From the IMG/VR virus record IMGVR_UViG_3300020383_000017, positions 1-33,199 of that record: 33,199 bases of DNA. One strand, 5' to 3'. Below, in pieces: positions 6,941 through 33,199 of the stretch. The translations under genes were made by a program, and so were the position numbers. The notes beneath the pieces are model-generated. The model saw only the letters and a list, made by a program, of their open reading frames with translations, was not told where the DNA came from and searched no databases. Origin of the DNA: a virus. Positions within the stretch are counted from its first letter, which is position 1. Each line of letters begins with the position of its first letter.

Positions 6941-6957
6941 TAACCCACACGTCGCTA

Positions 6958-6992: not shown

Positions 6993-6997
6993 ATTTT

Positions 6998-7028: not shown

Positions 7029-7058
7029 GTCTTCAATTATAAAAATAAGGAATGTCTC

Positions 7059-7259: not shown

Positions 7260-7279
7260 AGCGCCTGTATCCCATTGTG

Positions 7280-7313: not shown

Positions 7314-7323
7314 AACTTATGCG

Positions 7324-9999: not shown

Positions 10000-10040
10000 T
10001 GTGTAATTACCTATAACTGTAATAAAGAGCGAAGTACAAT
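10000..10040. promoter_or_regulatory. 41-base divergent intergenic region
   Basis: It separates the portal-like gene (minus) from the 694-residue gene (plus). It is A/T-rich (TTACCTATAACTGTAATAAAG) and carries both ribosome-binding regions. There is little room for two full promoters, so control may lie partly inside the genes. No clear promoter element is seen. Confidence 0.3.
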
Positions 10041-12125: not shown

Positions 12126-12951
12126 TGTAACACGTACCATCTACGCCAGTGCGCTTCAATCAGCACAGGTTTTAGGTATTCCCTACGACATCGTAGATAA
12201 TACCACACTAAATGAAAAGTTTGGTATTCTCGATGGCATCCATCCAACCGAGGGCTATCCGGTAATGCAGTACCTAGCAATCGGACGTGGTGGTCATAGA
12301 AACGCCAGTGGCGCAGACGGTGCATCGCTTACGCGTTTAAATACCCACAGAGCGTCTGACGCGGCGTTATTTAAACACCTACCCTTTGTATTACGCGAGG
12401 TAGATAATGACCTTACCGCAACACAGCGTGCCCGTTACGGTATGCGTCGCGAAGAAACTATTGACGGTGTTAATTACATCGCCTATTACTTACTGCGCAT
12501 CGATAACACTAACGTGGATATTGATTACAACCGTGTAACTGTTACTGACGGTGATCAGTCAACTGTTCCATATACACCGTCTTCAAGCGACTTGAGTCCA
12601 ACGCCAACTGAAGTATCGCCTACGGGTATTAACGTGTCTGATGGTGAGTACCTGACCGCCTCTGCAGGTATCACGCTTAACTTCACTAGCGACATTATCA
12701 ACGAAATCGTTAATGCTGCTAAAATTATCTATGGTGAAGAAGAGTACGCGACGTTATCTGAGATAGGTTTGGTATCTGGTCAGGACTACACACACAGCGC
12801 TACTAACAGCGAAGGTGGTTCATTCACTTACGCTGAAGTTATTGCCGCGCAGGTTAACACGCACATCACCATGCATCAGCAGTTATGGTTGTTAAATAAC
12901 AGCTTAACGCTTGAGTTTAATCTAGGTGGTACTGAATCATTATCAATCTAA
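12118..12951 (+). CDS. Probable virion structural protein, 277 aa
   Basis: It starts eight bases before the preceding stop, with AAAGGA before the ATG. Features include GYPVMQYLAIGRGGH followed by RNASGADGAS near residues 42-65, a Pro/Ser/Thr-rich stretch in the middle (PYTPSSSDLSPTPTEVSPT, about 143-161) and beta-rich ends. No enzyme motif is seen. The overlap with the 694-residue gene argues for a shared role in the particle, such as a baseplate or neck partner. Family not recognised. Confidence 0.55.
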   Translation: MTNVTRTIYASALQSAQVLGIPYDIVDNTTLNEKFGILDGIHPTEGYPVMQYLAIGRGGHRNASGADGASLTRLNTHRASDAALFKHLPFVLREVDNDLTATQRARYGMRREETIDGVNYIAYYLLRIDNTNVDIDYNRVTVTDGDQSTVPYTPSSSDLSPTPTEVSPTGINVSDGEYLTASAGITLNFTSDIINEIVNAAKIIYGEEEYATLSEIGLVSGQDYTHSATNSEGGSFTYAEVIAAQVNTHITMHQQLWLLNNSLTLEFNLGGTESLSI

Positions 12952-12960
12952 GGTGATGAC

Positions 12961-13263
12961 ATGCAGAGTGACCATATAAAAACGTTAAGTACCTTTGCCC
13001 ACACGCTCGATTATGAGTGTGAAGTAGAGACCTGTAAAGGTAAAGTCTCACTTACCAGTATAAGTGAAGCAACACGGGAAAAACTGTATGGTAGCCATGC
13101 CTGGCCATGTCACTGCAAGGAATGCGGCGCGCTCTACATCTCTAATGTACCATTACCTTTAGAGATAACCGGTCAAGGAGGAGCTCGACGCTCCTCTTAT
13201 AGCCTTGAGATCGCTAGGAGAAAGATGCTTGTAATCAAGCTCAATAACAACAGGTTAGGTTAG
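12961..13263 (+). CDS. Small Cys-rich protein, zinc-binding-like
   Basis: 100 residues with AAGGTGATGAC before the ATG. Cysteines at about 20, 25, 50, 52 and 55 (C-x4-C and C-H-C-x2-C) suggest a zinc ribbon or knuckle. The C-terminal third is basic (ARRSSYSLEIARRK), which fits nucleic-acid binding. It is the first of three small Cys-rich proteins in this cluster and precedes the RuvC-like gene by two bases, so a role in DNA metabolism is plausible but inferred. Confidence 0.6.
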   Translation: MQSDHIKTLSTFAHTLDYECEVETCKGKVSLTSISEATREKLYGSHAWPCHCKECGALYISNVPLPLEITGQGGARRSSYSLEIARRKMLVIKLNNNRLG

Positions 13264-13265
13264 CT

Positions 13266-13841
13266 ATGTTCGGTGTAAACACTTTTCGCATCATTGGCTT
13301 TGATCCTAGCGTTGACAACATGGGTGTAGGTATTTTAGAGGTAGACATTAGAACCTATAAAGTTATCTGCGCCCAGTCTTTTACGCTAAAGGGTAAAGAC
13401 CATGTTAAGCGATACGCTCATATTGCCAAAATACATGGTGATAGAGTAGCTAAACTACACGGTCACTATAATGCAATTTTGAATATCTTTGATCAGTGGG
13501 ACCCCCATGCTGTTGCAATCGAGACGCCATTCTTAGGACGTTTCCCTGCAGCTTATGGTGCATTAAAAGAATGCGTGTGTATTGTCAATCAAGCTCTACT
13601 TACACATGACTTCTCATTGAAGCTTAATGAGATTGACCCTAAGAGCGTTAAGAACGCACTTGGTGTGTCAGGTTCTAGTAAAGATAAAGATGACATGCAA
13701 AAGGCACTTATTGCAAAAGATGATATTAGCTGGGAAAGAGATGTAAACCCTGAGGAACTAGACGAGCACAGTGTTGATGCGGTAGCTGTGGCTTACTGGT
13801 TTTATGAATTCCAATTTGGTCCTTATATAAAGAGGTCGTGA
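13266..13841 (+). CDS. RuvC-like Holliday junction resolvase
   Basis: 191 residues with an RNase H-like fold signature. IIGFDPSVDNMGVG gives the first catalytic Asp (D13) on strand 1, VAIETPF gives the second acid (E86) and DEHSVDAVAVAYW gives the C-terminal acids (E167, D171). This is the pattern of RuvC family endonucleases, which resolve four-way and branched DNA with metal ions. In a phage it would clear branched replication intermediates before packaging. The stop overlaps the next start (TGATG). Confidence 0.85.
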   Translation: MFGVNTFRIIGFDPSVDNMGVGILEVDIRTYKVICAQSFTLKGKDHVKRYAHIAKIHGDRVAKLHGHYNAILNIFDQWDPHAVAIETPFLGRFPAAYGALKECVCIVNQALLTHDFSLKLNEIDPKSVKNALGVSGSSKDKDDMQKALIAKDDISWERDVNPEELDEHSVDAVAVAYWFYEFQFGPYIKRS

Positions 13842-14239
13842 TGGCAACTTTCTTTTTAGTTACACCCACAAACGTCGGACATGAAACGCTCGGAGATATA
13901 GAAAAGATCATTCAAGCTAAAGTCGATCCAATGGCGCAGTTAACACACGTAACTAGGAAGACGGGCGCTATGGGTACGACCCCAATCCTCATGTCTCGAA
14001 CAAATCCTGACGGTATACCCCTTGAGGATATTATTGATCAGTTAATTGCGGAGATGAATGAAAAGCAAGAATATATCGAAAGAGATAAAAGCCTAGCTGC
14101 TCAATCTCTTAAATTAAACAGTCGGCAGATTATTGATTTGCTGATACGTATTAAACGTATTAATAACGAGTCACGTAATCTACTAGAGGCTATTAGTCCT
14201 GATCAAGGTCCAGTGGGTAAACCGCGCGTAGGTAATTAA
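13841..14239 (+). CDS. Unknown protein, 132 aa
   Basis: The ATG at 13841 is preferred over a GTG three bases earlier because AGAGG sits five bases before it and it overlaps the RuvC-like stop (TGATG). The N-terminal half (MATFFLVTPTNVGHETLGDIEK...) looks like a small alpha/beta domain; the second half is a long charged helix (about 65-110). No recognised motif. It is followed by a hairpin-TTATGCCGT element, so it ends a transcription unit that includes the resolvase. Confidence 0.6.
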   Translation: MATFFLVTPTNVGHETLGDIEKIIQAKVDPMAQLTHVTRKTGAMGTTPILMSRTNPDGIPLEDIIDQLIAEMNEKQEYIERDKSLAAQSLKLNSRQIIDLLIRIKRINNESRNLLEAISPDQGPVGKPRVGN

Positions 14240-14242
14240 ACT

Positions 14243-14273
14243 AGCCAGGGCGTTGTCCCTGGCTTTATGCCGT
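14243..14273 (+). terminator. Stem-loop followed directly by TTATGCCGT
   Basis: AGCCAGGG (14243-14250) pairs with CCCTGGCT (14257-14264) around CGTTGT. TTATGCCGT follows at once (14265-14273). There is no T-run. It lies four bases after a stop codon and 45 bases before the next start. Confidence 0.65.
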
Positions 14274-14317
14274 GTTAACTCTGACGCGGGTAAAGAAACC
14301 TATAGAGGAGATTCATC

Positions 14318-14683
14318 ATGCAGTGTTATACATATCAAATTGGTAAGGCTGAAGATAACCCAGAGCACGAGCATATACTGCTTATAAATAGCTCTGTTAA
14401 AAGCGGCTACCGCTGGCTGGCCCCGACATGGGCATTATTAATGGCTTACAAACAAGGTGAGATTACAGAAGAACAATACACTGAGAAGTTTAAAACACTG
14501 ATGCGTCTAAGGTATCGACGTTATCGTAATTTATTTGAAGCGATGAGTAAACAAGAACAAGTAGCGTTCGGTTGTTATTGTAAAGACGGTGACTTCTGCC
14601 ATCGACATCTACTCATTGAGATGTTTGAAAAGATCTGTAACAACTACGACATTCCCTTTAAATATATTGGAGAATTAAAATGA
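14318..14683 (+). CDS. DUF488-like protein
   Basis: 121 residues, GGAGA before the ATG. The C-terminal part has FGCYCKDGDFCHRHLLIEMF (about 84-103), matching the 'CxCK....CHR..L' signature of the DUF488 family, whose Cys/His cluster is conserved and whose biochemical function is not settled. The middle is helical and basic (LMRLRYRRYRNLFEAM). Its stop overlaps the next start (ATGA), so it is coupled to the next gene. Assignment to DUF488 rests on the Cys/His motif alone. Confidence 0.6.
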   Translation: MQCYTYQIGKAEDNPEHEHILLINSSVKSGYRWLAPTWALLMAYKQGEITEEQYTEKFKTLMRLRYRRYRNLFEAMSKQEQVAFGCYCKDGDFCHRHLLIEMFEKICNNYDIPFKYIGELK

Positions 14684-15012
14684 GTAACTATAATCCAGTT
14701 AACGTTGAAGACCTACACGACGATACATTCAACACCGTTGTTAGAGCAGCTGATGATGTTCTAGTTAAATTACGTCACGCACAACTTAAACATGGTCTAA
14801 CTAGGGGATGGCGCTACCCGCCACCAAATGCTGCAATAGGTGAGGGGCGGTTCTTTAACACTCCTGAAGAATGCGTGGTGGCTTTAAAATCCCATCTAGC
14901 GAAAGGTGAGATTACCGACTGCATTGCCTACCTGATGTTTTTGAAAGACTTAGAGGGGGGTGATTTCTCTGAAAGTCTTGTTAAGCAGTTTAAATTAGAT
15001 AATAAGGAATAG
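14680..15012 (+). CDS. Unknown protein, 110 aa
   Basis: It overlaps the DUF488-like stop by four bases (ATGA) with GGAGA upstream. It is helical and soluble, with DDVLVKLRHAQLKHG in the first half and EITDCIAYLMFLKDL in the second. The latter is faintly like the last acidic helix of all-alpha NTP pyrophosphatases, but a full E-x2-E...E-x2-D set is not seen, so I do not assign it. Position suggests DNA or nucleotide metabolism. Confidence 0.55.
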   Translation: MSNYNPVNVEDLHDDTFNTVVRAADDVLVKLRHAQLKHGLTRGWRYPPPNAAIGEGRFFNTPEECVVALKSHLAKGEITDCIAYLMFLKDLEGGDFSESLVKQFKLDNKE

Positions 15013-15016
15013 CGAC

Positions 15017-15655
15017 TTGAAAATATCTAACAATGTAAAAACAATTACCAGAAACCCCATCGCTGGTGTTTTAGATATTGAGACAGGATCTCTTCGTAAT
15101 AAAACACACATATTCACCATAGGTCTAGTTATTGGTAATCTTGTTACTGGTGAGATTTTGGCAGAGTCGTATTATCGAATAAACGGGGTTGGTCAAGAGG
15201 ACCGTATAAAGGATCATGATACGTTTGAGGTATTCTGGAAAGACAGCTCTCTGGTTTCTCTAGAGGCTCAAAGAGAAATATTTGATGAAACCCTACCACG
15301 TATGCCCCTGGCTGAAGCTTTATTAAAATTAAATGATGACATCAATGATTTTAAAGAGAAATATGATGTTAAACAAATCAACATAACTGGTAACGGTAGT
15401 GAATTTGACAACGCCATTATTGTAGAAGCTTATCGAGATTTGGACATTGAACTGCCATGGAAGTATGGCGATAACCAATCACTACGCACAATAGTCTGGC
15501 TGGGGCGGTTATTATTAGGAATTGATCCTAAGTACACTATCGAGTTTGAGGGGATACTACATCACGCGCTGCATGATTGTCGGCATGAATTTAAAACAGC
15601 TTCAACTATTGTTAGAGAGTTACTAGCCGCTATTAAGGAGAAAGGCGATGTATGA
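15017..15655 (+). CDS. DexA-like 3'-5' exonuclease (DEDDh, Rv2179c-like)
   Basis: 212 residues. LDIETG supplies D20 and E22, NGSEFDNAII supplies D131, and HHALHDC supplies H182 and D187 with the H-x4-D spacing of DEDDh exonucleases. The order FWKDSS...LEAQ..., then NGS-FDNAII..AY...ELPW, then RT matches the phage DexA/Rv2179c-like branch. It would degrade single-stranded 3' ends of DNA or RNA. The start is TTG at 15017, with AAGGA eight bases before it and no early in-frame ATG. Its end overlaps the DHFR start by eight bases. Confidence 0.8.
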   Translation: MKISNNVKTITRNPIAGVLDIETGSLRNKTHIFTIGLVIGNLVTGEILAESYYRINGVGQEDRIKDHDTFEVFWKDSSLVSLEAQREIFDETLPRMPLAEALLKLNDDINDFKEKYDVKQINITGNGSEFDNAIIVEAYRDLDIELPWKYGDNQSLRTIVWLGRLLLGIDPKYTIEFEGILHHALHDCRHEFKTASTIVRELLAAIKEKGDV

Positions 15656-16232
15656 TAACGCTATCGGTATATTGGCTTGTGATGCCAAGTGGGGGATAGG
15701 ACGTGATAACAGTATCCCGTGGTATTGTCCGGAAGACTTTAAACATTTCAAAGAAACGACGTATAAACAAATTGTCATTATGGGTCGTAAGACCTTTGAA
15801 AGTATAGGGAAGCCATTGCCGGGACGTGTTACTATTGTTCTCACTAGAAACATGCAACTGACTGCACAAGGTGTTATTGTTACCTCAAGTCCTGAAAATG
15901 CAATGTGGACAGCTAGAGCCCTAGCAGACTCTATCGATACAGGCGGAGAGCGTACTAAGATATTCATCTGCGGTGGGGCTGAGATCTATAAGGCCATGCA
16001 CCGTTGGGTTGATCGTTACATTGTCACGCGCATATCCCATGCTAAAGTATCGCATTTTGATTGTGATGCGTTCTTTGACACCTCTCTTCTTGATAATTAC
16101 CGTATTGAGAAAATCAGCGAATTAGAGAAATCTAAGAACCCAGGTATTGGGTTTCAGATTCTTCATTTTGTTGATACCGAAAATCCTGATACGGACACGC
16201 GCATTACATTGGAGCGTCACTATGCCCGCTAA
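15648..16232 (+). CDS. folA: Dihydrofolate reductase
   Basis: 194 residues, slightly longer than typical bacterial DHFR. Motifs in order: AIGILACDAKWGIGRDNSIPW (folate site and Met20-like loop), PEDFKHFK with the catalytic acid, IVIMGRKTFESIGKPLPGR (NADPH binding), IVLTRN, and IFICGGAEIYKAM. It reduces dihydrofolate to tetrahydrofolate, replacing what thymidylate synthase oxidises. It belongs to a run with dUTPase and thymidylate kinase. An AAGG site and overlap with the exonuclease stop support the ATG at 15648. Confidence 0.93.
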   Translation: MYDNAIGILACDAKWGIGRDNSIPWYCPEDFKHFKETTYKQIVIMGRKTFESIGKPLPGRVTIVLTRNMQLTAQGVIVTSSPENAMWTARALADSIDTGGERTKIFICGGAEIYKAMHRWVDRYIVTRISHAKVSHFDCDAFFDTSLLDNYRIEKISELEKSKNPGIGFQILHFVDTENPDTDTRITLERHYAR

Positions 16233-16500
16233 ACAAGTGATTCTAACCCCTATACAGATCGCCTATGACTGTGACGTTTGTGGTAATCCGGTAAAGTCTC
16301 TTAGAGATACTACTAATGTTTCAGAATGGTGGGGTGGTGTTGAAAGTAAAAAAGTACCGCATCAGTGTAGTGTATGTGGAAAGACCTACACCTTTAATGT
16401 TGATATAACTCAAGTATTATGGTCTTCTGACCCCAACGGATATACCATCGAGCAGATTAACGAATACATCTTACCCAGTAAGGATAAAGATAATGAATAG
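16222..16500 (+). CDS. Small zinc-ribbon-like protein
   Basis: 92 residues, starting MPAKQVILTP. The ATG at 16222 has GGAGCG six bases upstream and overlaps the DHFR stop; a longer upstream frame would lie inside the DHFR gene. Cys pairs at 17/20 (CDVC) and 49/52 (CSVC) form a classical two-knuckle zinc ribbon. No catalytic motif. Its stop overlaps the dUTPase start. Function unknown. Confidence 0.65.
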   Translation: MPAKQVILTPIQIAYDCDVCGNPVKSLRDTTNVSEWWGGVESKKVPHQCSVCGKTYTFNVDITQVLWSSDPNGYTIEQINEYILPSKDKDNE

Positions 16501-20832: not shown

Positions 20833-21789
20833 ATGTTTATAATTGTTATTAAGCAAGAGTTTAGAAATCAGATTCAAACGCGTTACATCACAACAGATCA
20901 GCTAAAGACCACCGCTAATAAAAAGCACCCTTCTATGGTGCAGCTTGAGATAGATGGTAACAATGTTAATATCTTAGATCTTGACGGTGATGTGAACATT
21001 AGCATCTACACGGCTACCGGGATGAAGTTAAATGAAATAACCTACACGGATAATACTTCATCTGGACTACCAGAATCAATCCACTTCTCACCGGATGATC
21101 CTTATCTAGATAAACCATTTGAAGGTAAAGACCAACCCTTCCCTGAACCGCTTAAATACATAGAGACACTTCAAGAGACATTAAACTCATGTCTGTTAAG
21201 TCGTTGGGATGAACCCCATGCATTCTTTAGGGGGTCTTATTCCCTAGATGTACCTATGTTGCGTAAAATAGTTGCTTCAGTATTTATCGAAGGTGTGGAT
21301 AGAACCAGTCAGCATTTAACTACAGCGAAGTGTCTATTAGCTAACGTGACGAAACTGATTAAGCTACTGCAAGATATAAAAGAAGGAAGGCGAGAAAGTC
21401 ACTTAATATTAAACGATGGATACTGGATCAACCCCGCCATACATGCTAGGGTTAAATTCCCACCGTGGTTAACTCACAATCTTGGTACGCTTATTAAGTT
21501 AGAGCAGGATAAATTATCGGCAATTACTTCTGATAAGTTAAACGGCATTAGTGTATATACGGCTGATATAGAGTTTATCAAACGTGCATCTTTATCTGAT
21601 AGAGATCGCATCTTCTATGGCGGTATGTGGTTTATTGACAAAACTAGCAATTTTAATGATAACACGTTTAAGTCAATAGTAGACGATCATCAAAAAGCAG
21701 TAATGGCTGATAATGATAAAATTCTAACACAGTTAATTGAGTTAGATGAGATTAAAACTAATTTGAAATCTTACATCAACAACAATTAA
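20833..21789 (+). CDS. Unknown protein, 318 aa
   Basis: Soluble protein with a beta-rich N-terminal third (MFIIVIKQEFRNQ...; IDGNNVNILDLDGDVNIS) and a helical remainder. No enzyme motif, signal or membrane helix is clear and I do not recognise it. AAGGACAGTT precedes the ATG. It converges on the hydrolase gene, and its stop codon overlaps the ACGGCATA of the minus-strand terminator motif. Confidence 0.6.
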   Translation: MFIIVIKQEFRNQIQTRYITTDQLKTTANKKHPSMVQLEIDGNNVNILDLDGDVNISIYTATGMKLNEITYTDNTSSGLPESIHFSPDDPYLDKPFEGKDQPFPEPLKYIETLQETLNSCLLSRWDEPHAFFRGSYSLDVPMLRKIVASVFIEGVDRTSQHLTTAKCLLANVTKLIKLLQDIKEGRRESHLILNDGYWINPAIHARVKFPPWLTHNLGTLIKLEQDKLSAITSDKLNGISVYTADIEFIKRASLSDRDRIFYGGMWFIDKTSNFNDNTFKSIVDDHQKAVMADNDKILTQLIELDEIKTNLKSYINNN

Positions 21790-22778: not shown

Positions 22779-23309
22779 TTACTGTTCAATGTTTGTCAAA
22801 TAGACTTTGTTATTCTCAACATCAACGAGTAACTCAAATTGACCTTTCCCTGTTAAGCTTACCGACGCATCCTCGGTCGTTGCATCTAGATGGAAAACTG
22901 TTCCACCGACAGATGATACAACATTGACTTCACCAGCCGTGTCCCACACATTGTCAATTTTAACGATCGCGTTTTGTGCGATGTCTTCCATATCTAACGT
23001 GACCGTTCCCGTACCTGATCCAATTCGTTTAACAACATGGTAGACTGCAAAACCAGATAGGGTGACGTCGCCGTCTGTGTTAACGACGTTAAATGTACCG
23101 TGGGGGTCGATCGCACTAAAGTGAGCTTCTAGGATTCCATCGTAAGACGAACCGATGGTGAACATGTTTCCTTCATCGTCTTTCGAGTAAAGGATCTGAT
23201 CTTTAACGTTAATGGCAATACCTGCCACATTAATTAATTCAGGTTCAGGTACTGCACCGGGGGTCGTACTGTAAGGAAAACCTATTGGCCCTAAGCGGAA
23301 TGTTGCCAT
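22779..23309 (-). CDS. Fibre-like virion protein, 176 aa
   Basis: Its N-terminal part (AGIAINVKDQILYSKDDEGNMFTIG, about residues 29-53, quoted in part) matches the short beta motif common at the start of phage fibre or tail-spike proteins and resembles the same region of the 330-residue protein encoded at 24718-25710. The rest is Gly/Val/Thr/Asp-rich beta structure. AGGAG precedes the ATG. It is probably a particle-surface or fibre component. Which one is unknown. Confidence 0.55.
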   Translation of the reverse strand: MATFRLGPIGFPYSTTPGAVPEPELINVAGIAINVKDQILYSKDDEGNMFTIGSSYDGILEAHFSAIDPHGTFNVVNTDGDVTLSGFAVYHVVKRIGSGTGTVTLDMEDIAQNAIVKIDNVWDTAGEVNVVSSVGGTVFHLDATTEDASVSLTGKGQFELLVDVENNKVYLTNIEQ

Positions 23310-23449: not shown

Positions 23450-23481
23450 TAAATAGTGTACGATATTAAAAGGTGGTAAAT

Positions 23482-24621
23482 GTGGGAAGAGGTATAGATT
23501 TAACGGGACGGAAGTTCGGTAAATTAACCGTAGTAGATCAGGCTCCCAATAAGGAAGGTCAGAGGGGCAATTGGTGGAATTGCTTATGTGATTGTGGGAA
23601 TGCGAAAGTTGCTTCGGCTAAAAGTCTAAATGCAGGCGATACCCAAAGCTGCGGTTGTCTAAATAAGAACGATCTAATAGGTAAGGTCTATGGGAGGTTA
23701 ACCGTCAAAGCAGAAGGGGTTGAAAAGAAAGGTGATAAACGCACATGGGTTTGTGAATGTAGCTGTGGATCAACTAGTATCGTTACGACGAGTGATTTAG
23801 TAACCGGTCATACGCGCAGTTGTGGATGTCTACAGAAGGAGCGGGCGAAAGAAGCGAATAAGACGCACGGCTATTCGCGTAGACGTCACCCCCTCTACGC
23901 ACGGTGGTTAGGTATGAGGAATCGATGTAATAATCCAAATGATGACTATTACGACAACTATGGAGGTAAAGGTGTAAAGGTCTGTAAGCGATGGGACTCA
24001 TTTACTAACTTTCTGGAAGATATGGGTGAGTGTCCGGAAGGTCATACGTTGGACCGACGTGATAACGATGGTGATTATACACCTGAAAACTGTCGTTGGG
24101 CTAGTCCGTCTGAGCAGTCTAGAAATAAAAGCGATACATTGTGGGTTAATTATCAAGGTAACAAGGTGAGGCTAGTAGAGTTATCTGAAAAATTCGATGT
24201 TCCTTTCAAGCTTTTGTACCAACGATTATACACACATGGATGGTCTTTAGAACGGTCTCTTAAACCTTGGATAATTACTAGGCGTGGAACTGGAATGCTA
24301 GTAGCAGTCAATATCAAATCTAGGAGGTTAGTGTTAGGTAAAAAACTAAGAGGATTAGCAGTGAAATGCGAGCTGTCTAAAAAGCAGTTAAGTGAAGGAA
24401 CTATTGACTATTCTATCATACAGGAAACATGGCTAGCAAAGTCTCTCGAAGATCCTACACCTTGGAATGATTTCAGGGGATGTAGCGGGATACCAGAGGA
24501 CGTTATCTTAAAGCAAGCTAATGAACCGGATATTATCTTTTCTAACGCGAGAGAGGCTTACAGGTACCTTGAGCGGAGTTCTCTGTTAGATGAGGAGTAT
24601 ACATTAAAAGTATTTGAATAA
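23482..24621 (+). CDS. Free-standing HNH homing endonuclease
   Basis: 379 residues from GTG 23482; AAGGTGG lies five bases before it, which favours it over the GTG at 23473. Two tandem N-terminal Cys modules (about 5-60 and 62-115) share the plan G-x-x-[FY]GxLTV...W.C.C.CG...S..L..G.T.SCGCL. An HNH core follows (about 125-215) with YARWLGMRNRCNNP, YGGKGVKVC and GHTLDRRDNDGDYTPENCRW. Then comes a DNA-recognition-like segment (VRLVELSEKFDVPFKLLYQRL) and a long C-terminal extension of unknown nature. It is transcribed opposite to the fibre genes on both sides, as expected for a selfish element that cuts and copies itself into allelic sites. Confidence 0.85.
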   Translation: MGRGIDLTGRKFGKLTVVDQAPNKEGQRGNWWNCLCDCGNAKVASAKSLNAGDTQSCGCLNKNDLIGKVYGRLTVKAEGVEKKGDKRTWVCECSCGSTSIVTTSDLVTGHTRSCGCLQKERAKEANKTHGYSRRRHPLYARWLGMRNRCNNPNDDYYDNYGGKGVKVCKRWDSFTNFLEDMGECPEGHTLDRRDNDGDYTPENCRWASPSEQSRNKSDTLWVNYQGNKVRLVELSEKFDVPFKLLYQRLYTHGWSLERSLKPWIITRRGTGMLVAVNIKSRRLVLGKKLRGLAVKCELSKKQLSEGTIDYSIIQETWLAKSLEDPTPWNDFRGCSGIPEDVILKQANEPDIIFSNAREAYRYLERSSLLDEEYTLKVFE

Positions 24622-24656
24622 CGGCATAAAACCATGGGGCTTTACAACCCCATGGT
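24621..24656 (-). terminator. Stem-loop followed by TTATGCCGT, convergent gene ends
   Basis: ACCATGGGG (24631-24639) pairs with CCCCATGGT (24648-24656). On the minus strand TTATGCCGT (forward 24621-24629) follows after one base, sharing a base with the stop codon of the HNH gene. On the plus strand a looser TCATGCTGA follows the stem. Confidence 0.6.
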
Positions 24657-24687
24657 CATGCTGACTATGTTTCTTTTTTTACTTCAA

Positions 24688-24703
24688 ACTACATTTCTGT
24701 AGT
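24688..24703 (-). other. Stem-loop with GAAA tetraloop
   Basis: On the minus strand ACTACA-GAAA-TGTAGT forms a compact hairpin shortly after the fibre gene stop and before the main terminator-like hairpin. GNRA loops are unusually stable and are common at RNA processing or protein-binding sites. Confidence 0.35.
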
Positions 24704-24717
24704 AATCAAGATAGGCA

Positions 24718-25710
24718 TCAGAAACTGCGACCATAATCAAGATTAGCAGCTAGGTCTGCAACCAGGCCGTTAGCATGGCTAATTGCCTGTAGGCGTGCAT
24801 CGTTAACTGCTTTAGATGAAGCTACGTTAGTTTCAGATACAGAGTCAATTGCACTAGAGATAGCAGACTTGTCTACTTTAAGTGCAAGACCAGCATCAGC
24901 GTATGCTTTAGCGTCAGTCAATGCAAGTAGAATTGCATTTGAAGAAGCAACGTTTGTTGAGCTGTTAGACGTGATTGAATCAGAGATAGACGTTTTGTCT
25001 ACTTTGGTATCCAAACCATCGTTAAGCTGAGTGATGCTTGCTTTAGTTGCAAGTGAAGACGTAATAGCAGCGATATCGCTGTCGTTGTCTGTCAATGCAG
25101 CAGCAAGTTCTTGAAGTGTATCAAGCGCGGCTGGTGGAGCGCCGCCAAGGATGTCAGACTTAACTGCATCAGCGTAAGCAATCGCTGCTGCTTCAGCATC
25201 AACCGCACGTTGGTGGGCAGTATACGCAGCCATAGATGATGCGTATTGAGTAGAGTTTTGTTCTACAACTGAGTCGCTGATACCGTAGTTTTCAACGTTA
25301 CCTAGACCAACGTCAGCTTTAGTTAGGTTAGAAGTGTCTTGTTGCGCTTGAGCAATGTTAGACTCAGCAGTTTCAAGACGTTGACCGATTTTCAACAAGG
25401 TGTCTAAGTCAGCAGCTAGTGTGCCACCTTTAAGACCATTGATTTGGCTATCGGTGTAGGTATTAGCTTGAGCGATCGCGTTAGCTTGTGCAGCGGCGAT
25501 GTCAGCTGTGTAGTCACGACCTAGCGTGATTACATTACCTTCGTGGTCTTTAGTGAAGATCTTGCGATCTACTAAGTTAAGTGCAATTGCACCTTCTTCC
25601 AAGTCAGCAGCTAGCGGCGCTGCGCCTGAGGTGATTGAACGGTCAAATTGAATCTGACCAAGATCAATGGCTACGTTTTCCGCGCCTGAAGTCGAGTTGA
25701 CTGTACTCAT
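24718..25710 (-). CDS. Tail-fibre-like protein with repeated helical modules
   Basis: 330 residues. N-terminal EEGAIALNLVDRKIFTKDH plus EGNVITLG is the standard fibre-start beta motif. LTKADVGLGNVENYGISDS and PPAALDTLQELAAAL, followed by DNDSDIAAITSSLATK, are recurrent fibre-shaft sequences in many tailed phages. Two or more copies of a 'KVDK.[ST]IS.[SA]I.S.S.TNVASS.A' unit lie at about 225-310. Ala/Asp/Ser-rich helices predominate. Codon use is strongly biased, like the capsid gene, suggesting high expression. TAGGAG precedes the ATG. It would form part of a receptor-binding or shaft fibre. Confidence 0.75.
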   Translation of the reverse strand: MSTVNSTSGAENVAIDLGQIQFDRSITSGAAPLAADLEEGAIALNLVDRKIFTKDHEGNVITLGRDYTADIAAAQANAIAQANTYTDSQINGLKGGTLAADLDTLLKIGQRLETAESNIAQAQQDTSNLTKADVGLGNVENYGISDSVVEQNSTQYASSMAAYTAHQRAVDAEAAAIAYADAVKSDILGGAPPAALDTLQELAAALTDNDSDIAAITSSLATKASITQLNDGLDTKVDKTSISDSITSNSSTNVASSNAILLALTDAKAYADAGLALKVDKSAISSAIDSVSETNVASSKAVNDARLQAISHANGLVADLAANLDYGRSF

Positions 25711-25745
25711 AGGGTGAAACTCCTAGATGGGATGGGTCCCGGATT

Positions 25746-25765
25746 AAAAATACGATAACAATCGT
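25746..25765 (-). terminator. Short hairpin with T-run
   Basis: On the minus strand ACGAT-TGTT-ATCGT is followed by ATTTTT. It lies between the DUF4376-like gene and the fibre gene. The stem is short, so it may be leaky. Confidence 0.4.
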
Positions 25766-25788
25766 GTCATAGTATCTTAGTAAATGGA

Positions 25789-25812
25789 GGGGTAGATTTT
25801 AACACCTACCCC
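25789..25812 (-). other. GC-rich stem-loop between fibre-region genes
   Basis: GGGGTAG pairs with CTACCCC, 14 bases after the stop of the DUF4376-like gene. No TTATGCCGT and no T-run follow directly, unlike most other gene-end hairpins here. Confidence 0.45.
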
Positions 25813-25825
25813 GAAAAGTTAGCAT

Positions 25826-26479
25826 TTAAATGCTTACGCCAAAGAACGCAACACGTGCATCCCATGCAGTGAAATAGAAGGTTTCCCATTCTTCTTTCGT
25901 TGCAAGGACTACTGTGTTACCATTCTCATTCTTAAATGGAATTGGCTGCCACTCAGCACCTGCCGCTTCGCGTCGTTCAATCAAACGATCGATAGACGTC
26001 CAACCGTTTTGATCGTTTTCAGTAACGCTACAGATGGTACCATTAAACTCAAACGCATTTAGTTTACGCCATGTCGCGTACTTAGCATCACCGTTGAAAT
26101 AGTCTAAGACATTTTCAATGATAGGCATGGGTGGGAATGAGACATATTCTTGCTCGGGTTGTTTAAAATCAGCCTGAGCTTCTGTCAGCGTTGCATTAGA
26201 CTCGCGAATCGCTTTGTTCTTACTAGCAATTACATCGTTCTGCTTGTCAATAGCGATGCAACGTTGCGCCCAGGAGTCTTGAAGATGTCCTTTATAATTC
26301 TCAAGAGCTACTAGCAACGTGTCCTCTTTGACATTGTTACTCATTAATTTGTAAATGTAATTTAAATCGTAACTGAGTTTACTAAACTCATATACAGCTT
26401 CTACTACATTGCCGTCATCATCCGTTGTCTCGGGGGCAAGGATCCATTGACTAAGATCCGGTTTATTAGGACGCAACAT
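25826..26479 (-). CDS. DUF4376-like fibre accessory protein, 217 aa
   Basis: The first 110 residues are helical. The C-terminal part (ICSVTENDQNGWTSIDRLIE...WQPIPFKNENGNTVVLATKEEWETFYFTAW) resembles the DUF4376 plan found in tail-fibre accessory or assembly proteins: polar start, helix, a 'W...DN..V.LT..E/QW' stretch and a final helix. It starts one base inside the stop of the large fibre gene (TAATG), so it is coupled to it. A chaperone or fibre-tip role is likely but not proven. Confidence 0.5.
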   Translation of the reverse strand: MLRPNKPDLSQWILAPETTDDDGNVVEAVYEFSKLSYDLNYIYKLMSNNVKEDTLLVALENYKGHLQDSWAQRCIAIDKQNDVIASKNKAIRESNATLTEAQADFKQPEQEYVSFPPMPIIENVLDYFNGDAKYATWRKLNAFEFNGTICSVTENDQNGWTSIDRLIERREAAGAEWQPIPFKNENGNTVVLATKEEWETFYFTAWDARVAFFGVSI

Positions 26480-29322
26480 TAGCGTTTCTCCTTAGGTAAA
26501 AAACCAAGCGGTCTAGGTAATCTAACTAATCCACGCAGGGTACGTTTCATGTTAAGATCATTAATGAAAGAAATGTTAGGGTAATACTGGATAGTATTAT
26601 CATCACCATAACGCGAGTAAGCGTCTACCCTAAACGTGGGATGGATTGTATTTACACCACCTTTGTAAACAGAACCATCCTCGTGGTTTATGTAGTAATC
26701 GTGGAATGACGTATGATCCCACGTCGCATCTGGCGTGCCTGTCATAATCATGACAATATTATTAATTGCTTCATTACTAGAATTAATAATAACAAACTTA
26801 TCACCAATGGACAGTCCATGCGTGACGCTACCGCTTAGATCGACAGTAGCGGTATTAGTGCTATCGACCGTTCTATCCTGTATAAGTTCCTTGAACGTTA
26901 CATGACCATATACCAGACCAGTAACAGTATCTACATTTAAGAAAGGTAACAATTTCACACCATCTGATCTTCCATACCAAGGGATTGATAACTCAGTATG
27001 ACGTATCGCATCTTCTGACCAACTACTAGAGATGAGTTCACCAAACTCATCATCTAACGTAAAGGTTGCTCGCTCTAGCTTATGTTTGACGTATGCAGCC
27101 TGGTTAGTTTCTTTACCAAGTTTACCTGTCAGATTGTAAATAAGCGGAGCGTTATTATCAGAAACAGTTGCAAAGACATCACCAATTTTAATCGTAGCTA
27201 AAGATCCCGCACGTTGATGGTGGGTAGGTTCTAAAACTTTACCCAAATGCTGATAATCTACAAATACTATCATATCAGCTGGCGGGTTATACGGTGCACT
27301 GTTTTCCGCGCCGTTAAAGTCTAAACGGAAAGATGTATCATGCACCCACGTGTCGCCAAAGTTTTGAGTACGCTTAACTCGATCACCTAATTTCAATGAT
27401 TTTCTAGTCAATTCGACTGTCTGCATCGTCCCATCAGGTAACATAGGGTTCCAGTTTAAACCTACTACTGCATTTAGATTCATAGAATCATAATAGTCCG
27501 CCAACACATCCGGTCTTGCCATTACATCCAGTGTAGGAAGCTGTGCAAGCGAGTATTTTGTTCTCTTACTAAATAAGACAATAACCTCATCGCCTACTTC
27601 CCATGATGTTGTTAACGATGTAGGGTTATTGCCGGTAAGCGCTCTAGAACTAGACGTGTAGCTCGCCCCTTCAAATATCAACGGGTTGGTGTATGAGTTA
27701 GTAGGGTAAAAAAGCGTAGGTTCCGTGGTGTTGTTAAACTTCACAGCCGGACTATATTCGCCCTTGGTGACGTTATACAACCAACACCCGCCTACTAAAT
27801 CCCCACCATCTCTAGGTAATGTCATGTTAAGATCTGGAAGTGTTTCAGAAACGGCATCGATGGTAGTTCTAAATATCTCCAACGACTTGATATATTCCCA
27901 CCCACGAGTTCGATTGCCTAGTAGATCTTTACCAAACGCGTTAGCATCTATATTGATACCTTGGGCGTCTGTGCGAAGATCCTGCATCTGCCAGTCGTAG
28001 ATGTTATCGTGCGTATACCCTAATGGATGACCAGAGAATCCATGTTGAATATTACCACCATACCCACCGTCTATCAGTGACCCGCCATCACTATTGTATT
28101 GGAAACAATCAGCAATAGACTCCGCCCTCTTCAAAACAGCGCTTTGTGAATAAAAATCCCCACCATTAGCTGTTGCATGAAGTTTAGTACCTAATGGATT
28201 AAAGGCGGGGTGATAAGCACCCTGGTTAAGGCGTGTAACTTTTGCAATAGGCATCCAAAATATACTACCTATTGCATTGTTAGATGTGAACTTAGGATTG
28301 GTAATGGCAAGACCCGGGTCAACATTACCTACTCGTTCTTGGGAATTAATCTGGTAAAAATGACGACCAGAATTCACCTCAACGACCGGAATTGATGAGC
28401 CTTGGGCACTCAGCCTTACAAGAGAAACGTCACCGCTAGTCCTTACATAGGACGTTGCCGCATCATCATAACCGCTTGTAAAGCGCCAATCATCACCAAT
28501 TGATGGTACTGAACGTATACGATACTGCCATTGATAAACACGGTCGCCGTCCAAATATACGTTATTATCAGGGTCGTTGATAAACTTTGTTTTGTGCTCT
28601 TCGCTCATCTTATCCCATGTAAACCCACGGCCCCACGTCACGGTATCCCACGAACCAAAAGCACTATAGCTCTGAGGCATTACACCATCGGTGTAATTCT
28701 TTGTTCCGCTAGTATTGCCGTTATATTGGACATTACCTAAAGGAAAAACAGCAGGTATCTGACCTCCCTCATTCCCTATTTCTACTAGGAATACTTCCAT
28801 CCCTACTAGATCTTCACGAGATACCATATCTACTGGTTTAAAGTAGGTAACATCTGACAATAGCATACCTGATGGTGCGTCGCTTACAGTAATGTAAATA
28901 TTATTATTGTTTATTACATGGTCGCCAGGTTTATAATCGCGAGATGTAGTCGTACTTGCCTCTACTTCGGCCATCGGAGCCGGTGGAAGGTAGATAGAGT
29001 TTCGAGATGACGCGCCAGTTAAATTTTGAACGATTCTAAGGCCGTCTATATTGTAGACAGGGTGCTCCGTCTCACTATCCCCACGGTTATTACCATCGCT
29101 TGTGCTTCTACCCATTCTAAATGCATTGGGTAACCCGCCGTTAATTGTGCACCATATTCCTGTATTTACAGCAACATTATTAACATCTTCCTCGTAGTGC
29201 ATCCCTGGATGTATAAATCCAGAAACTGCAAACGTACGTCTTCGCATTTCACGTAAAGATTCAAACTCTGAAACAGTCATGCCTTTACCCGATGAAGGTA
29301 ACAGTTCTGCTAAGTTTATCAT
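26479..29322 (-). CDS. Large fibre/receptor-module paralogue 1 (947 aa)
   Basis: Start chosen at the ATG 29322 (MINLAELLPSSG) because CTGGAG lies before it; the longer frame to 29367 would translate the intergenic stem-loop. It shares with the next gene upstream, in the same order: SGFIHPGMHY, YNIDGLRIV, VSREDLVGMEVFLVE, YQWQYRIRSVPS, PIAKVTRLNQG, ESIADCF, the GHPL.Y.HD segment, CWLYNVTK and a C-terminal GFLPKEKR. The protein is rich in Asn, Tyr, Trp, Asp and Gly, with beta structure and no signal. Size, composition and tandem duplication next to fibre genes suggest tail-fibre or spike proteins. No enzymatic site is recognised. Confidence 0.65.
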   Translation of the reverse strand: MINLAELLPSSGKGMTVSEFESLREMRRRTFAVSGFIHPGMHYEEDVNNVAVNTGIWCTINGGLPNAFRMGRSTSDGNNRGDSETEHPVYNIDGLRIVQNLTGASSRNSIYLPPAPMAEVEASTTTSRDYKPGDHVINNNNIYITVSDAPSGMLLSDVTYFKPVDMVSREDLVGMEVFLVEIGNEGGQIPAVFPLGNVQYNGNTSGTKNYTDGVMPQSYSAFGSWDTVTWGRGFTWDKMSEEHKTKFINDPDNNVYLDGDRVYQWQYRIRSVPSIGDDWRFTSGYDDAATSYVRTSGDVSLVRLSAQGSSIPVVEVNSGRHFYQINSQERVGNVDPGLAITNPKFTSNNAIGSIFWMPIAKVTRLNQGAYHPAFNPLGTKLHATANGGDFYSQSAVLKRAESIADCFQYNSDGGSLIDGGYGGNIQHGFSGHPLGYTHDNIYDWQMQDLRTDAQGINIDANAFGKDLLGNRTRGWEYIKSLEIFRTTIDAVSETLPDLNMTLPRDGGDLVGGCWLYNVTKGEYSPAVKFNNTTEPTLFYPTNSYTNPLIFEGASYTSSSRALTGNNPTSLTTSWEVGDEVIVLFSKRTKYSLAQLPTLDVMARPDVLADYYDSMNLNAVVGLNWNPMLPDGTMQTVELTRKSLKLGDRVKRTQNFGDTWVHDTSFRLDFNGAENSAPYNPPADMIVFVDYQHLGKVLEPTHHQRAGSLATIKIGDVFATVSDNNAPLIYNLTGKLGKETNQAAYVKHKLERATFTLDDEFGELISSSWSEDAIRHTELSIPWYGRSDGVKLLPFLNVDTVTGLVYGHVTFKELIQDRTVDSTNTATVDLSGSVTHGLSIGDKFVIINSSNEAINNIVMIMTGTPDATWDHTSFHDYYINHEDGSVYKGGVNTIHPTFRVDAYSRYGDDNTIQYYPNISFINDLNMKRTLRGLVRLPRPLGFLPKEKR
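28781..28830 (-). repeat. Near-identical DNA block shared with 31693-31742
   Basis: A 50-base block encodes MVSREDLVGMEVFLVE in both large paralogues with one base difference, including identical third codon positions. Surrounding regions are much more diverged. Confidence 0.75.
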
Positions 29323-29342
29323 TTTTAAATTACTCCAGGTAT

Positions 29343-29360
29343 TGGGGGCCGTGACCCCCA
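29343..29360 (-). other. Stem-loop between paralogue genes
   Basis: TGGGGG pairs with CCCCCA in the short gap between the stop of paralogue 2 and the ribosome-binding site of paralogue 1. No terminator motif follows. It may tune read-through or RNA processing. Confidence 0.5.
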
Positions 29361-29366
29361 TATCCA

Positions 29367-32267
29367 TTATCTACGGTAGGTTTTAGGTAAGAAACCGATA
29401 GGTTTTGTCCCTAACACTACACCATACGCTACTGTATTACCATTGAGGTCTTTATCAAAAGCAACGTTTGAAGTCGAATGCCCTTCAAACTCACCATCAT
29501 CACCATGTCTGGTGATAGGTGCTAGTTCAAACTGCCCTACAAAAGAACCATCTTCACGATAGATATTACCATCATCGTAATTAACACGATGTAGATCAAA
29601 ACTGGCTTCACCCCATGTTTGATTGGTTATTGTTTGTCGTGTCGCCAAGACCAACCCCTCGATGAAACTATTTCGATTGTTAATCAGTTTAAAATGCTCA
29701 CCAATCTCCAAATTAACAGTTTGTGGTGTAGACAAATCTATTATGGTAACTGGTTTATCACCTGTTTCGTAATACAGCTGTTTGAACGTCAATTGTGGAT
29801 AGATCAAGTTATTCTTGGTTTGGTGTCCCAAGCTCACGTGGAATTTAACACCGTTAGACGGGTCTAACGAATCCAGCTCCGCATGTGCAAGATCTTGAGT
29901 CCACGTACCATCTAACACGTAACCATCACGTGTATGTAGTAGACCTATGCGTTCTCGACGATATCTTAAAGGATCAGAACCATCACCCACTGGAACCTGA
30001 CCGGTAAGTGAGTAATTAACTAAACCCCCCTTCTTAATATCTGCTGAAGTTGTAGCCCAAATACCACTTATAGCAGCATTGGCGAAAGGTAATCTTCGAG
30101 TACTGCCATTAAAAAGAGATGCTCTTTTAACCACAGATGCCGACGATCGGTATTGTAGAAGTTGAATTTGGTTTTCAGGGACCACGTGCATAGAGCTGTT
30201 TGAAAAACCAATATAACGTCCTAGATAAGAAGTACTAGTAAGCCAGTTTTCACCTAGATTATCAGTAATTAGTAGACTACTAGATGTACGTTCTATCTTT
30301 CTACGACCTTTATATTCTTTAGATGTATTATCTGGTATGGAAGGAATCCAATCCATACAGGGTACGGTTGTGACGCCGTATGATAATAATAAATCTAAAA
30401 GCTTCTGCGGTGTTGCTATTACATCAGTGGTGATATGTCGTTGCATAGAAACATCGGACTCTTTAAAGGATATAACGATTACCTCGTCATTTACCTCCCA
30501 ACCATCTGTTATAAAATGGTTAACATTACCACTTGAACCCCACTGTCCTAAGATTGTCTGAGGGTCTATTGATTTATCAATAGACCAGTACGAATTAGAA
30601 TTATCGTAACGAATACCTGGCTGAAGAAGGTCTTTAGTAACGTTATATAACCAACAACCGGTTCTAAATTCGTTATCAGGAGCGTCAAGTAATGTTATTT
30701 GAGCATTGCTATCTACAGTCTCAATTGTAGATTTAAATACATTCATTAACTTCAACGGCTCCCAACCCCTGACCTTGCCGAATACATAATCGTAGGCTAG
30801 GTCTTCTACGTCAATACCCGCGCCGATGGCAGGTAAGCGTAAATCGTCAACCATATCTGCACGTATTATATCATGCACGTATTGAAGAGGGTGACCACTC
30901 TTACCAGACACATGTGTTCCAGAATTAGGGTAGATGCCTTCTTCCTGGGGACCTGTAGCTATTTTAAAACAATCCGCTATTGATTCTGGTAAATACACCC
31001 CATCAATATACCACGGGTTATCTGAATTTTCAGTTTGTTTTCTGAACGTTGCCGTGCCCAATGGGTTATAAACAGGATGATAACCACCCTGGTTAAGACG
31101 TGTAACTTTTGCAATTGGTAAGAAGTAACAAGCCCCTTCACTCATTCCGGCTGATGAAAAGCTATTAAGTGACCATATTCCAGGTGCTTTCTCAGAATAA
31201 GAATTTCTAGGAGTTAACACACGTCTACCCCCAGTCAACCTATATTGAGTAGTATATAGAGAATAACCTTGAAATTGCAAAACCCCACCGACATCATAGT
31301 CTGCAGCACTGATAAAAGTAGCGGTATACGCATCTTCTACCGTAGACCATTTCCACTGTTGACCTAACGATGGTACTGAACGTATACGATACTGCCACTG
31401 GTAATATCTACCATCTTCTTCGTAGATGTTATTATCAGGATCGGCCATCCACACATTTCGCTCTTCTGCAGTAAGATCACTCCAACGGACACCAAAACCA
31501 GGTCCATTTACTCGGGTAACATCGACACCCTCGTGGGTAAATTGATCCACTGGCCAGCTTTCCTGCCAGCTTCCGAATTTTGAATAATCTTCATGCATTA
31601 AATCATTTTGAAGATCAAATCCGTTCCAATCTTTTTCACCATTTTGAACATTACCATAAGGGTAAACTACATTAACTTTACCCTGTTTCAGCTCTACTAG
31701 GAATACTTCCATTCCTACTAGATCTTCACGAGATACCATATCGCGGGTTTCAAAAAGTGTAGTGTTTGTTAAACTAGAACCAGCAGTTGACCCGTCAGGG
31801 TGAATGCAGACGTAGATGTTGTTGCCTACAACAACATGGTCACCCTGCTGGTAGTCCTTAGTAGTCGTTGTACTTAACTCGGGTGTGGCCATAGGTGCAG
31901 GTGGTAGTAGAATACGGTTAGTGTCGTATTTAACCTCATCGTAACTCTCATGATAGCTTGTATCATGGTTAGTGCCTCTAAGGTGGACTACAATACCGTC
32001 AATGTTAAAAATAGGATAATCCGATTCACTAACACCGCCACCGCCTGTTTGAAAAGTACTACGCCCCATGTATAGGCTGTCATATACAGATGAAGAGAAA
32101 GTAAACAGACCCTCACCCATTACATAATCAGTATTATCCCAATGGCGTCCTGGCTCTATGTAACCGCTAGAGGCAAAAATACCTCTGTTATGTTCACGGT
32201 TAGCTTCAAACTGTGCCTTAGATAGTGATCTAAGCACACCTGGAACTCTATTAGCTATATCTGTCAT
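29367..32267 (-). CDS. Large fibre/receptor-module paralogue 2 (966 aa)
   Basis: Start chosen at the ATG 32267 (MTDIANRVPG) with ACGGAGAA upstream; the longer frame would include an intergenic hairpin and overlap the previous gene. It shares all the ordered blocks listed for the 947-residue paralogue (SGYIEPGRHW, FNIDGIVVH, VSREDLVGMEVFLVE, YQWQYRIRSVPS, PIAKVTRLNQG, ESIADCF, CWLYNVTK) and ends IGFLPKTYRR. The middle differs most. Probably a second fibre or spike with a different specificity, or a partner in a heteromeric fibre. No catalytic site is seen. Confidence 0.65.
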   Translation of the reverse strand: MTDIANRVPGVLRSLSKAQFEANREHNRGIFASSGYIEPGRHWDNTDYVMGEGLFTFSSSVYDSLYMGRSTFQTGGGGVSESDYPIFNIDGIVVHLRGTNHDTSYHESYDEVKYDTNRILLPPAPMATPELSTTTTKDYQQGDHVVVGNNIYVCIHPDGSTAGSSLTNTTLFETRDMVSREDLVGMEVFLVELKQGKVNVVYPYGNVQNGEKDWNGFDLQNDLMHEDYSKFGSWQESWPVDQFTHEGVDVTRVNGPGFGVRWSDLTAEERNVWMADPDNNIYEEDGRYYQWQYRIRSVPSLGQQWKWSTVEDAYTATFISAADYDVGGVLQFQGYSLYTTQYRLTGGRRVLTPRNSYSEKAPGIWSLNSFSSAGMSEGACYFLPIAKVTRLNQGGYHPVYNPLGTATFRKQTENSDNPWYIDGVYLPESIADCFKIATGPQEEGIYPNSGTHVSGKSGHPLQYVHDIIRADMVDDLRLPAIGAGIDVEDLAYDYVFGKVRGWEPLKLMNVFKSTIETVDSNAQITLLDAPDNEFRTGCWLYNVTKDLLQPGIRYDNSNSYWSIDKSIDPQTILGQWGSSGNVNHFITDGWEVNDEVIVISFKESDVSMQRHITTDVIATPQKLLDLLLSYGVTTVPCMDWIPSIPDNTSKEYKGRRKIERTSSSLLITDNLGENWLTSTSYLGRYIGFSNSSMHVVPENQIQLLQYRSSASVVKRASLFNGSTRRLPFANAAISGIWATTSADIKKGGLVNYSLTGQVPVGDGSDPLRYRRERIGLLHTRDGYVLDGTWTQDLAHAELDSLDPSNGVKFHVSLGHQTKNNLIYPQLTFKQLYYETGDKPVTIIDLSTPQTVNLEIGEHFKLINNRNSFIEGLVLATRQTITNQTWGEASFDLHRVNYDDGNIYREDGSFVGQFELAPITRHGDDGEFEGHSTSNVAFDKDLNGNTVAYGVVLGTKPIGFLPKTYRR
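31693..31742 (-). repeat. Near-identical DNA block shared with 28781-28830
   Basis: Partner copy of the 50-base block in paralogue 1. A second shared patch lies around 31085-31116 and 28219-28250 (the KVTRLNQG region), and a third around 31369-31396 and 28502-28529 (YRIRSVPS). Confidence 0.7.
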
Positions 32268-32282
32268 TGCTAATTCTCCGTT

Positions 32283-32300
32283 AAGGGGCGTTAGCCCCTT
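32283..32300 (-). other. Stem-loop between paralogue genes
   Basis: AAGGGGC pairs with GCCCCTT around a four-base loop (GTTA forward, TAAC on the minus strand), located between the stop of paralogue 3 and the start of paralogue 2, just before the ribosome-binding site. It has the same position as the stem-loop at 29343-29360. Confidence 0.5.
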
Positions 32301-32304
32301 ATAA

Positions 32305-33199
32305 TTAAACGATTGATTTACGACGTTTATGTCTAGGTACAAAACCGAGAATTTCGTCAGTTCTAAAAGATCCGTATGTGATTATATTCCCATTAAGATC
32401 CTCACCTAACCTTAGGTGTTGTGCGTTAGATAGTATACTATCATCGCCACTCTTTGAAACAGGGTCAACGGCTGCTATATCCCAAAAATATCCATCCTTC
32501 CTATAAACACGCCCATCATCGATACCGATCTGCCACCCATCGAAGTGCGCTGCAGGAACAGTAACATTAGTATCGCGTAGTGCAACTAATGGCACGTTAG
32601 CTATCCCAGATGTAGACGAATTTACCATCATGAAGCGCTCACCCTTCGTTACATTGACTGTAACGTTCGATTCACTTAGGTCGATAACTGTTAACACGTC
32701 ATCACGGTACACGTTACGAACTTCTTTAAAGAAACCCTGCCCGTATATCGTACCAGCGTTACGGTCGTAGGTTAAAAATGGCGAAAACTTCACGCCGTCT
32801 TCATCAGTATCTCTGATAGTAATGTCCGTATGGAATATAGACCCATAAAGACCAGACTCCGGGTAGTCGAAATTGAAGGCGTCATTATACCCCATTCCAT
32901 TTCTGATCAGTTCGTATGAAATCGATTGAGGGTTTGTGTCTCCAGTTGTGATTTTACCGGTTAGGTTATAGCAAAGCGACCCCCCCTCTTCTACCTTATA
33001 TATTCCTGTATAATGTACAGCTCCATACTCGCCATCTAACAACCCTAAACCGGTACCCGTATGATATAGCGATGAGGCGGGAGTGTTATACATCAACATC
33101 AAGACATCAGTCGCTGGATTTACAATAGTTGCTGCATTAGCGGGGGATCTAAACCCCTGCAGGTAGCTAGAATAACCATTTAATGTCCAATAGCTACCT
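32305..33199 (-). CDS. Large fibre/receptor-module paralogue 3 (C-terminal part, cut by window edge)
   Basis: The frame stays open to the right edge of the window (...SYWTLNGYSSYLQG), so the gene begins beyond 33199; the ATG-like codons near 33102 are internal. About 298 residues are visible. They match the C-terminal regions of the two downstream paralogues: a segment like YNLTGKI, then HTDITIRDTDEDGVKFSPFL, FKE, VIDLSES, GERFMMVNSSTSGIANV, GDD and the ending LGFVPRHKRR. It makes a tandem family of at least three. Confidence 0.65.
   Translation of the reverse strand, partial: GSYWTLNGYSSYLQGFRSPANAATIVNPATDVLMLMYNTPASSLYHTGTGLGLLDGEYGAVHYTGIYKVEEGGSLCYNLTGKITTGDTNPQSISYELIRNGMGYNDAFNFDYPESGLYGSIFHTDITIRDTDEDGVKFSPFLTYDRNAGTIYGQGFFKEVRNVYRDDVLTVIDLSESNVTVNVTKGERFMMVNSSTSGIANVPLVALRDTNVTVPAAHFDGWQIGIDDGRVYRKDGYFWDIAAVDPVSKSGDDSILSNAQHLRLGEDLNGNIITYGSFRTDEILGFVPRHKRRKSIV

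Follow-up and report, generated by a model that had tools for sequence, protein, structure and literature searches.

Three tandem paralogues, and no more, make up the row at the end of the window (the whole 33,199-base stretch analyzed here): A, of 967 aa; B, of 991 aa; and C, of 962 aa. All are on the minus strand, collinear, and ~35% identical over their alignment. Paralogue C occupies positions 26479–29367 (minus strand; phrog_14489, E = 1.5e-84) and, judging from its relatives, likely starts 45 nt inside the open reading frame (ORF), at the Met opening MINLAELLP. Paralogue B occupies 29367–32342 (minus strand; phrog_14489, E = 2e-84); its longest ORF encodes 991 aa, and comparison with relatives suggests that translation likely begins near position 32267, with the Met of MTDIANRVPG. 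The 3' part of A (297 of 967 codons) lies in the window at 32305–33199 (minus strand), and the gene is complete in L008:7135-10038. An earlier note had described at least three tandem “giant” fiber paralogues, and C, B, and the end of A indeed proved to be collinear paralogues with the C-terminal GF[LV]P[KR] endings it had recorded (GFLPKEKR, GFLPKTYRR, and GFVPRHKRR); “giant” is a loose term for proteins of ~960–990 aa. When the sequence was extended past position 33199, as the note had proposed, the third copy was found whole, and the 124-kb record showed no fourth. A promoter and terminator scan of the array yielded sites no more numerous than in shuffles.

The window is a complete virus record that encodes a phiKZ-type major head protein (phrog_3231, E = 1.8e-164) and a polymerase-family protein (phrog_2943 “polymerase,” E = 1.6e-164), which we take to be an RNA polymerase subunit; a phage-encoded multisubunit RNA polymerase is characteristic of phiKZ-like phages. 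The window is a piece of a large, uncultured ocean phage that, judging from these two proteins, is phiKZ-like (Chimalliviridae, jumbo). The head protein matches 200 isolate records, each at <60% identity (33–42% among the matches listed). A megablast search with positions 24000–33199 of the window gave no match among phages and no near isolate, and no relative was found in Genome_contigs. Two larger IMG/VR records, 3300020435_000116 (123,978 bp) and 3300020467_000004 (100,573 bp), showed 0 mismatches to the window over the 13.8–16.7 kb compared.

We found four distinct versions of the three-gene row in IMG/VR, denoted X (that of the window), Y, Z, and V. Version Y comprises Y1 (3300023192_001558 and 3300022693_000799) and Y2 (3300025234_000001 and 3300025190_000006, with part of C in 3300001106_000004); Z is represented by 3300020473_000105, in which gene A is partial, and V by 3300001106_000003. 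Among X, Y1, and Z, orthologues are 42–56% identical and paralogues 29–38%; V is more distant, with orthologues at 29–38%. In a tree of X, Y1, Y2, and Z (V was left out), A, B, and C each form a single clade with 100% bootstrap support.

On the C side, the row adjoins a gene for a 217-aa protein (25826–26479, minus strand). The start of this gene overlaps the C stop codon, and the right cassette border lies within it. By its position, its overlap with C, and its co-variation with the row, this protein is a possible fiber chaperone; a match to DUF4376 (Tfa/DUF4376 type) in one of four members was not significant (E = 0.06), and the AlphaFold model (pLDDT 67.7) gave no PDB match below 1e-3. The next gene, outside the cassette, encodes a 330-aa tail-fiber-like protein (24718–25710, minus strand; phrog_1699, E = 4.9e-17) kept at 96–99% aa identity in X, Y, and Z. 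Upstream of A, a 196-aa protein (L008:6514-7104) carries a tail-fiber N-terminal match. The phrog_1699 N-terminal match is common to the 196-aa protein, the 330-aa protein, and a 176-aa protein (22779–23309), which form another paralogue set flanking the cassette. Two virion proteins farther upstream (L008:2496-3617 and L008:4321-5409) share a phrog_2163 N-terminal domain and represent a further paralogous pair. A 318-aa gene (20833–21789) is 99.7% identical in Y1, and its ends alone match in Z, suggesting internal loss or gain.

Context and variability suggest a putative receptor-binding role for A–C. Tail-fiber PHROGs match the neighbors of the array, and one Vibrio phage homologue of the paralogues is annotated “putative tail fiber protein.” Their family, phrog_14489, is one of unknown function; it was matched by 9 of the 9 scanned members of alignment A3 and occurs in Vibrio and Pseudoalteromonas phages, the Vibrio homologues being ~23–30% identical among the matches listed. 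The paralogues had no accepted match in Pfam (above the cut-off) or NCBIfam. The AlphaFold model (pLDDT 43.8) was too poor for use and gave no PDB fold match below 1e-3, and a fold search of a viral library returned a few nameless relatives at low TM-score. A carbohydrate-binding reading of the GDHVVVGN-IY region was dropped when no Pfam carbohydrate-binding family matched.

In X, near-identical DNA is shared by the paralogues in several short patches. The B copy of the SREDLVGMEVFLVE island (31688–31742, minus strand) is nearly identical to the C copy (28781–28830, minus strand) and to that of A, which lies outside the window; it matches C exactly in stretches of 29 and 20 bp and A in stretches of 23 and 25 bp, and the C copy is identical to A over 44 bp. 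The B copy of the GDHVVVGNNIYVCIHPDGSTAG tract (31780–31847, minus strand) is identical to A over 68 bp, the A copy again lying outside the window, and the WQYRIRSVPS tract is identical in B (31369–31397, minus strand) and C (28502–28530, minus strand) over 29 bp. The longest exact tracts are 68 bp (A–B), 44 bp (A–C), and 29 bp (B–C, twice). The 50-base block that the earlier note had singled out (28781–28830 and 31693–31742) matches at 49 of 50 bases. Its two further “almost identical” patches fared less well: one is 83% identical over 65 bp (28187–28251 and 31054–31118), and the other, although 83% identical over 52 bp (28486–28537 and 31353–31404), does contain an exact 29-bp core. Over whole genes, the use of the same codon at identical residues barely exceeds the codon-usage prediction (observed versus expected, 149 versus 130 for A–B, 128 versus 116 for A–C, and 131 versus 113 for B–C). 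The longest runs of identical codons for these pairs, 22, 14, and 9, have null P values of 0/20000, 0.00055, and 0.09, respectively.

Comparison of the versions showed that such identity is a property of each version. Exact runs of at least 18 bp between different paralogues numbered 17 (483 bp) in 12 same-version pairs versus one (20 bp) in 36 different-version pairs; the counts were 10 versus 0 for runs of at least 23 bp and 18 versus 1 in an alignment-free count. These counts cover X, Y1, Z, and V; Y2 was omitted for its near-identity to Y1 in the cassette. A three-version count in which Y2 replaced Y1 gave 14 runs within versions and 1 between. V, which was added once the pattern was known from the other three, agrees with it (2 runs in 3 pairs within, 0 in 18 pairs between). 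When version labels were reassigned among the paralogues, the data ranked 2, 1, 2, and 6 of 576 at minimum lengths of 15, 18, 21, and 24; the hot columns were picked post hoc, with the data already seen. It weighs against the exchange reading that the relabelling rank is not always first and that 10 of the 17 runs come from X. Orthologues, despite being closer in protein sequence than paralogues, have few runs of at least 18 bp (nine in 18 pairs), and most of these lie toward the ends of the cassette: one of 38 bp from the first base of A (X–Y1) and six of 20–24 bp at the C end, the other two, of 21 and 18 bp, being internal.

Gene conversion or another homologous exchange between neighboring copies, which the earlier note had proposed, would explain these version-specific runs and is well supported by the same-version excess, the synonymous shuffles, and the scarcity of such runs between orthologues. 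The patches could instead be kept identical by constraint on protein, codon usage, or an RNA or DNA element, with no exchange at all. The islands do encode conserved motifs (SREDLVGMEVFLVE, GDHVVVGN, and WQYR), and the alignments of several distant Vibrio phage homologues begin at about the island. However, the same motifs are written with codons that differ between versions and match within a version. At the GDHVVVGN-IY island, A equals B within each of X, Y1, and Z while the codons change from version to version, and B of Y2 departs from B of Y1 there at three silent positions, A being the same in both. Synonymous-codon shuffles within genes, which preserve protein and codon usage, gave a mean of 0.93 runs and reached the observed bases in 0 of 1000 trials, and for X, Y1, Z, and V taken singly, 0 of 300 did so. 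Because the shared island DNA differs by version, and with a lone inter-version run among the 36 pairs, codon or RNA constraint fails as an explanation, and we regard it as very improbable. Uniform synonymous divergence along the genes, set by the earlier note beside codon or RNA constraint as a possible refutation, was likewise examined, and neither refuted recombination.

Two further origins of the runs bear on the same data. The tandem layout and similar sizes of the genes would suit a recent partial duplication, in which the copies split recently and the remainder evolved fast. Against this, same-codon use outside the islands is 0.387 within versions and 0.394 between them, and the 100% support for A, B, and C as single clades places their split before that of X, Y, and Z; therefore, the runs are not leftovers of a recent duplication, an account that we consider extremely unlikely. 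Short-read assembly chimeras could also have created shared tracts, given that all versions are metagenome assemblies and that short repeats of this kind can confuse assemblers. X, however, is identical in three records over the compared stretch, Y1 and Y2 are each identical in two over A–C, and the reading frames are uninterrupted and identically ordered in every version, leaving such chimeras highly improbable.

Exchange between the copies, as far as the trees resolve it, is confined to short conserved islands, and the variable bodies keep their positional ancestry. In protein segment trees, B of X (B_X) grouped with the other B genes in columns 1–165 (support 98), 661–860 (97), and 861–1066 (100) and, with moderate support, in columns 233–317 (85) and 471–660 (88); its placement in columns 336–470 was not resolved, and columns 318–335 were too short for a tree. 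In the island segment (columns 166–232), B_X leaves the other B genes for a weakly supported new position, and the DNA of columns 165–232 groups A_X with B_X (97, SH-aLRT). The placement of A_X was not resolved in columns 861–1066. These trees thus indicate that short tracts were copied, and no long module swap between copies is visible. The shuffling of receptor modules between copies that had been suggested is not borne out, B_X staying with the other B genes in five of the six testable segments outside the island segment; the earlier interpretation holds only in part, conversion being supported and the visible exchange between phages involving the whole cassette and not modules of single copies. 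We withdrew one proposed direction of transfer, the overwriting of B_X by A or C sequence, because B_V also carries an SRED-like form.

The clustered differences between Y1 and Y2 had a same-cassette donor for one cluster only (B columns 172–177, 3 of 3 sites); most match no paralogue of their own cassette, so much of the fine variation came from elsewhere. That pattern, along with cassettes and HNH genes that differ or are common between phages in blocks, would fit a scenario in which two or three paralogues separately received one fragment donated by another phage or coming from a common third source. One donor would then have to strike two positions in each of four versions, whereas direct copying requires one event in each, and separate writing from a donor appears unlikely to us.

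The identity patterns between phages, and the borders where they change, can be read directly from the alignments. Outside the cassette, X and Y1 have nucleotide identities of 99.4% (18.9 kb upstream), 99.1% (16.5 kb, positions 1–16468 of the window), and 98.4% (8.3 kb downstream), and no difference separates their head and polymerase proteins; inside the cassette, amino acid identity is 47% for A, 43% for B, and 53% for C. Y1 and Y2 show the reverse: 77–80% nucleotide identity upstream and 74–85% in matching downstream pieces, with 207 differences in the 8607 bases of A–C (97.6% identical). The Y1/Y2 block ends sharply on its left, within the 196-aa gene, and X/Y1 identity drops twice, first late in that gene and again ~30–36 codons into A. 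On the right, the edge falls within the chaperone-like gene, residues 1–125 of which follow the cassette (122 of 125 match between Y1 and Y2, 58 of 125 between X and Y1), and the C-terminal 92 residues (126–217) are conserved regardless (83 of 92 and 84 of 92, respectively). On this sequence evidence, the row is a variable block within conserved flanks that appears to be swapped whole between phages, that is, a cassette.

An HNH endonuclease gene (23473–24621) is itself variable: X and Y1 share 77% aa identity there within surrounding DNA that is 98–99% identical, the ends alone match in Z, and V has ORFs of 534 and 231 aa at this place instead. It was considered as a driver of exchange and may have some role. 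As a cassette border it was rejected, because it is a separate variable block past the conserved 330-aa gene and matches in Z at its ends only. The window also encodes a RuvC-like resolvase (13266–13841) and an exonuclease-family gene (15017–15655). RecA family proteins were found in 0 of 4 records searched, and an RVT_1 reverse transcriptase, as expected of a diversity-generating retroelement, likewise in 0 of 4, all of these records being possibly incomplete. The three copies point in the same direction in each version, unlike an invertible fiber cassette of the Mu/P1 type, whose alternative fiber ends lie in opposite orientation.

We consider it likely, from these comparisons, that an old tandem set of three fiber-like genes persists as a cassette under two kinds of homologous recombination. 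A, B, and C, probably receptor-binding, would travel with the variable half of the possible chaperone. Neighboring paralogues would exchange short stretches (~20–70 bp exact) at islands conserved in protein, homogenizing the islands, leaving the variable bodies untouched, and giving each version its own shared DNA. The whole cassette would also be swapped between phages by crossovers in conserved DNA at both edges, in the 196-aa gene or early in A (within its first ~36 codons) on one side and in the chaperone-like gene on the other, so that a phage would gain a complete new set of three fibers. Gene conversion and crossover are the probable origin of the patterns, the islands may seed exchange, and receptor binding may set host range. 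A rather doubtful extension is that the islands are recombination ports, kept alike by repeated copying and letting relatives and sister genes recombine and renew the fiber set; if true, phage paralogues for receptor binding would be evolving in concert to the benefit of evolvability, within a group that has no isolates.

This reading keeps apart two processes that tend to be treated as one: short intragenomic copying between sister genes and the swap of a complete fiber set between phages. If A–C are receptor-binding proteins, backbone relatedness would mispredict attachment, because X and Y1 combine 98–99% identical backbones with cassettes only about half alike in protein sequence, and Y1 and Y2, 77–80% identical upstream, carry nearly the same cassette. 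Cassette exchange thereby suggests a putative change in which bacteria the phages bind, and the four versions provide a natural test set for fiber renewal in jumbo phages.

In the literature covered, which was partial, we found no report of conversion between tandem phage fiber paralogues. A tandem pair of longer homologues in phage J2-1 (28.5% aa identity) shares no run of at least 15 bp in a codon alignment. The hypervariable receptor-binding region of the T-even distal tail fiber/adhesin locus recombines through short conserved motifs, and a helper or adhesin gene lies next to it; this is a single fiber locus, with exchange between phages and not between tandem paralogues. The row resembles that locus in its apparent short-motif recombination and in the adjoining putative helper but differs in that exchange appears to run between tandem paralogues. 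For phage 0305phi8-36, it has been proposed that a domain passed long ago from one virion gene to another within the genome (PMC2147016). The closest described system is the branched tail-spike (TSP1–4) clusters of Ackermannviridae, for which conserved N-terminal parts that allow homologous recombination, exchangeable whole tsp genes, and the intragenomic recombination of tsp4 with an added tsp5, seen by sequencing, have been described (PMC11414711). To that extent, both systems combine several paralogues, conserved parts, and recombination, with a receptor-binding role there and a putative one here; the likeness is one of organization. Unlike in Ackermannviridae, the natural copies of A–C appear to exchange DNA solely at short islands within the genes, and it is the three-gene row as a whole that moves between phages. 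What the row would add is natural, repeated copying among three tandem genes, together with whole-row exchange, in an uncultured phiKZ-like group.
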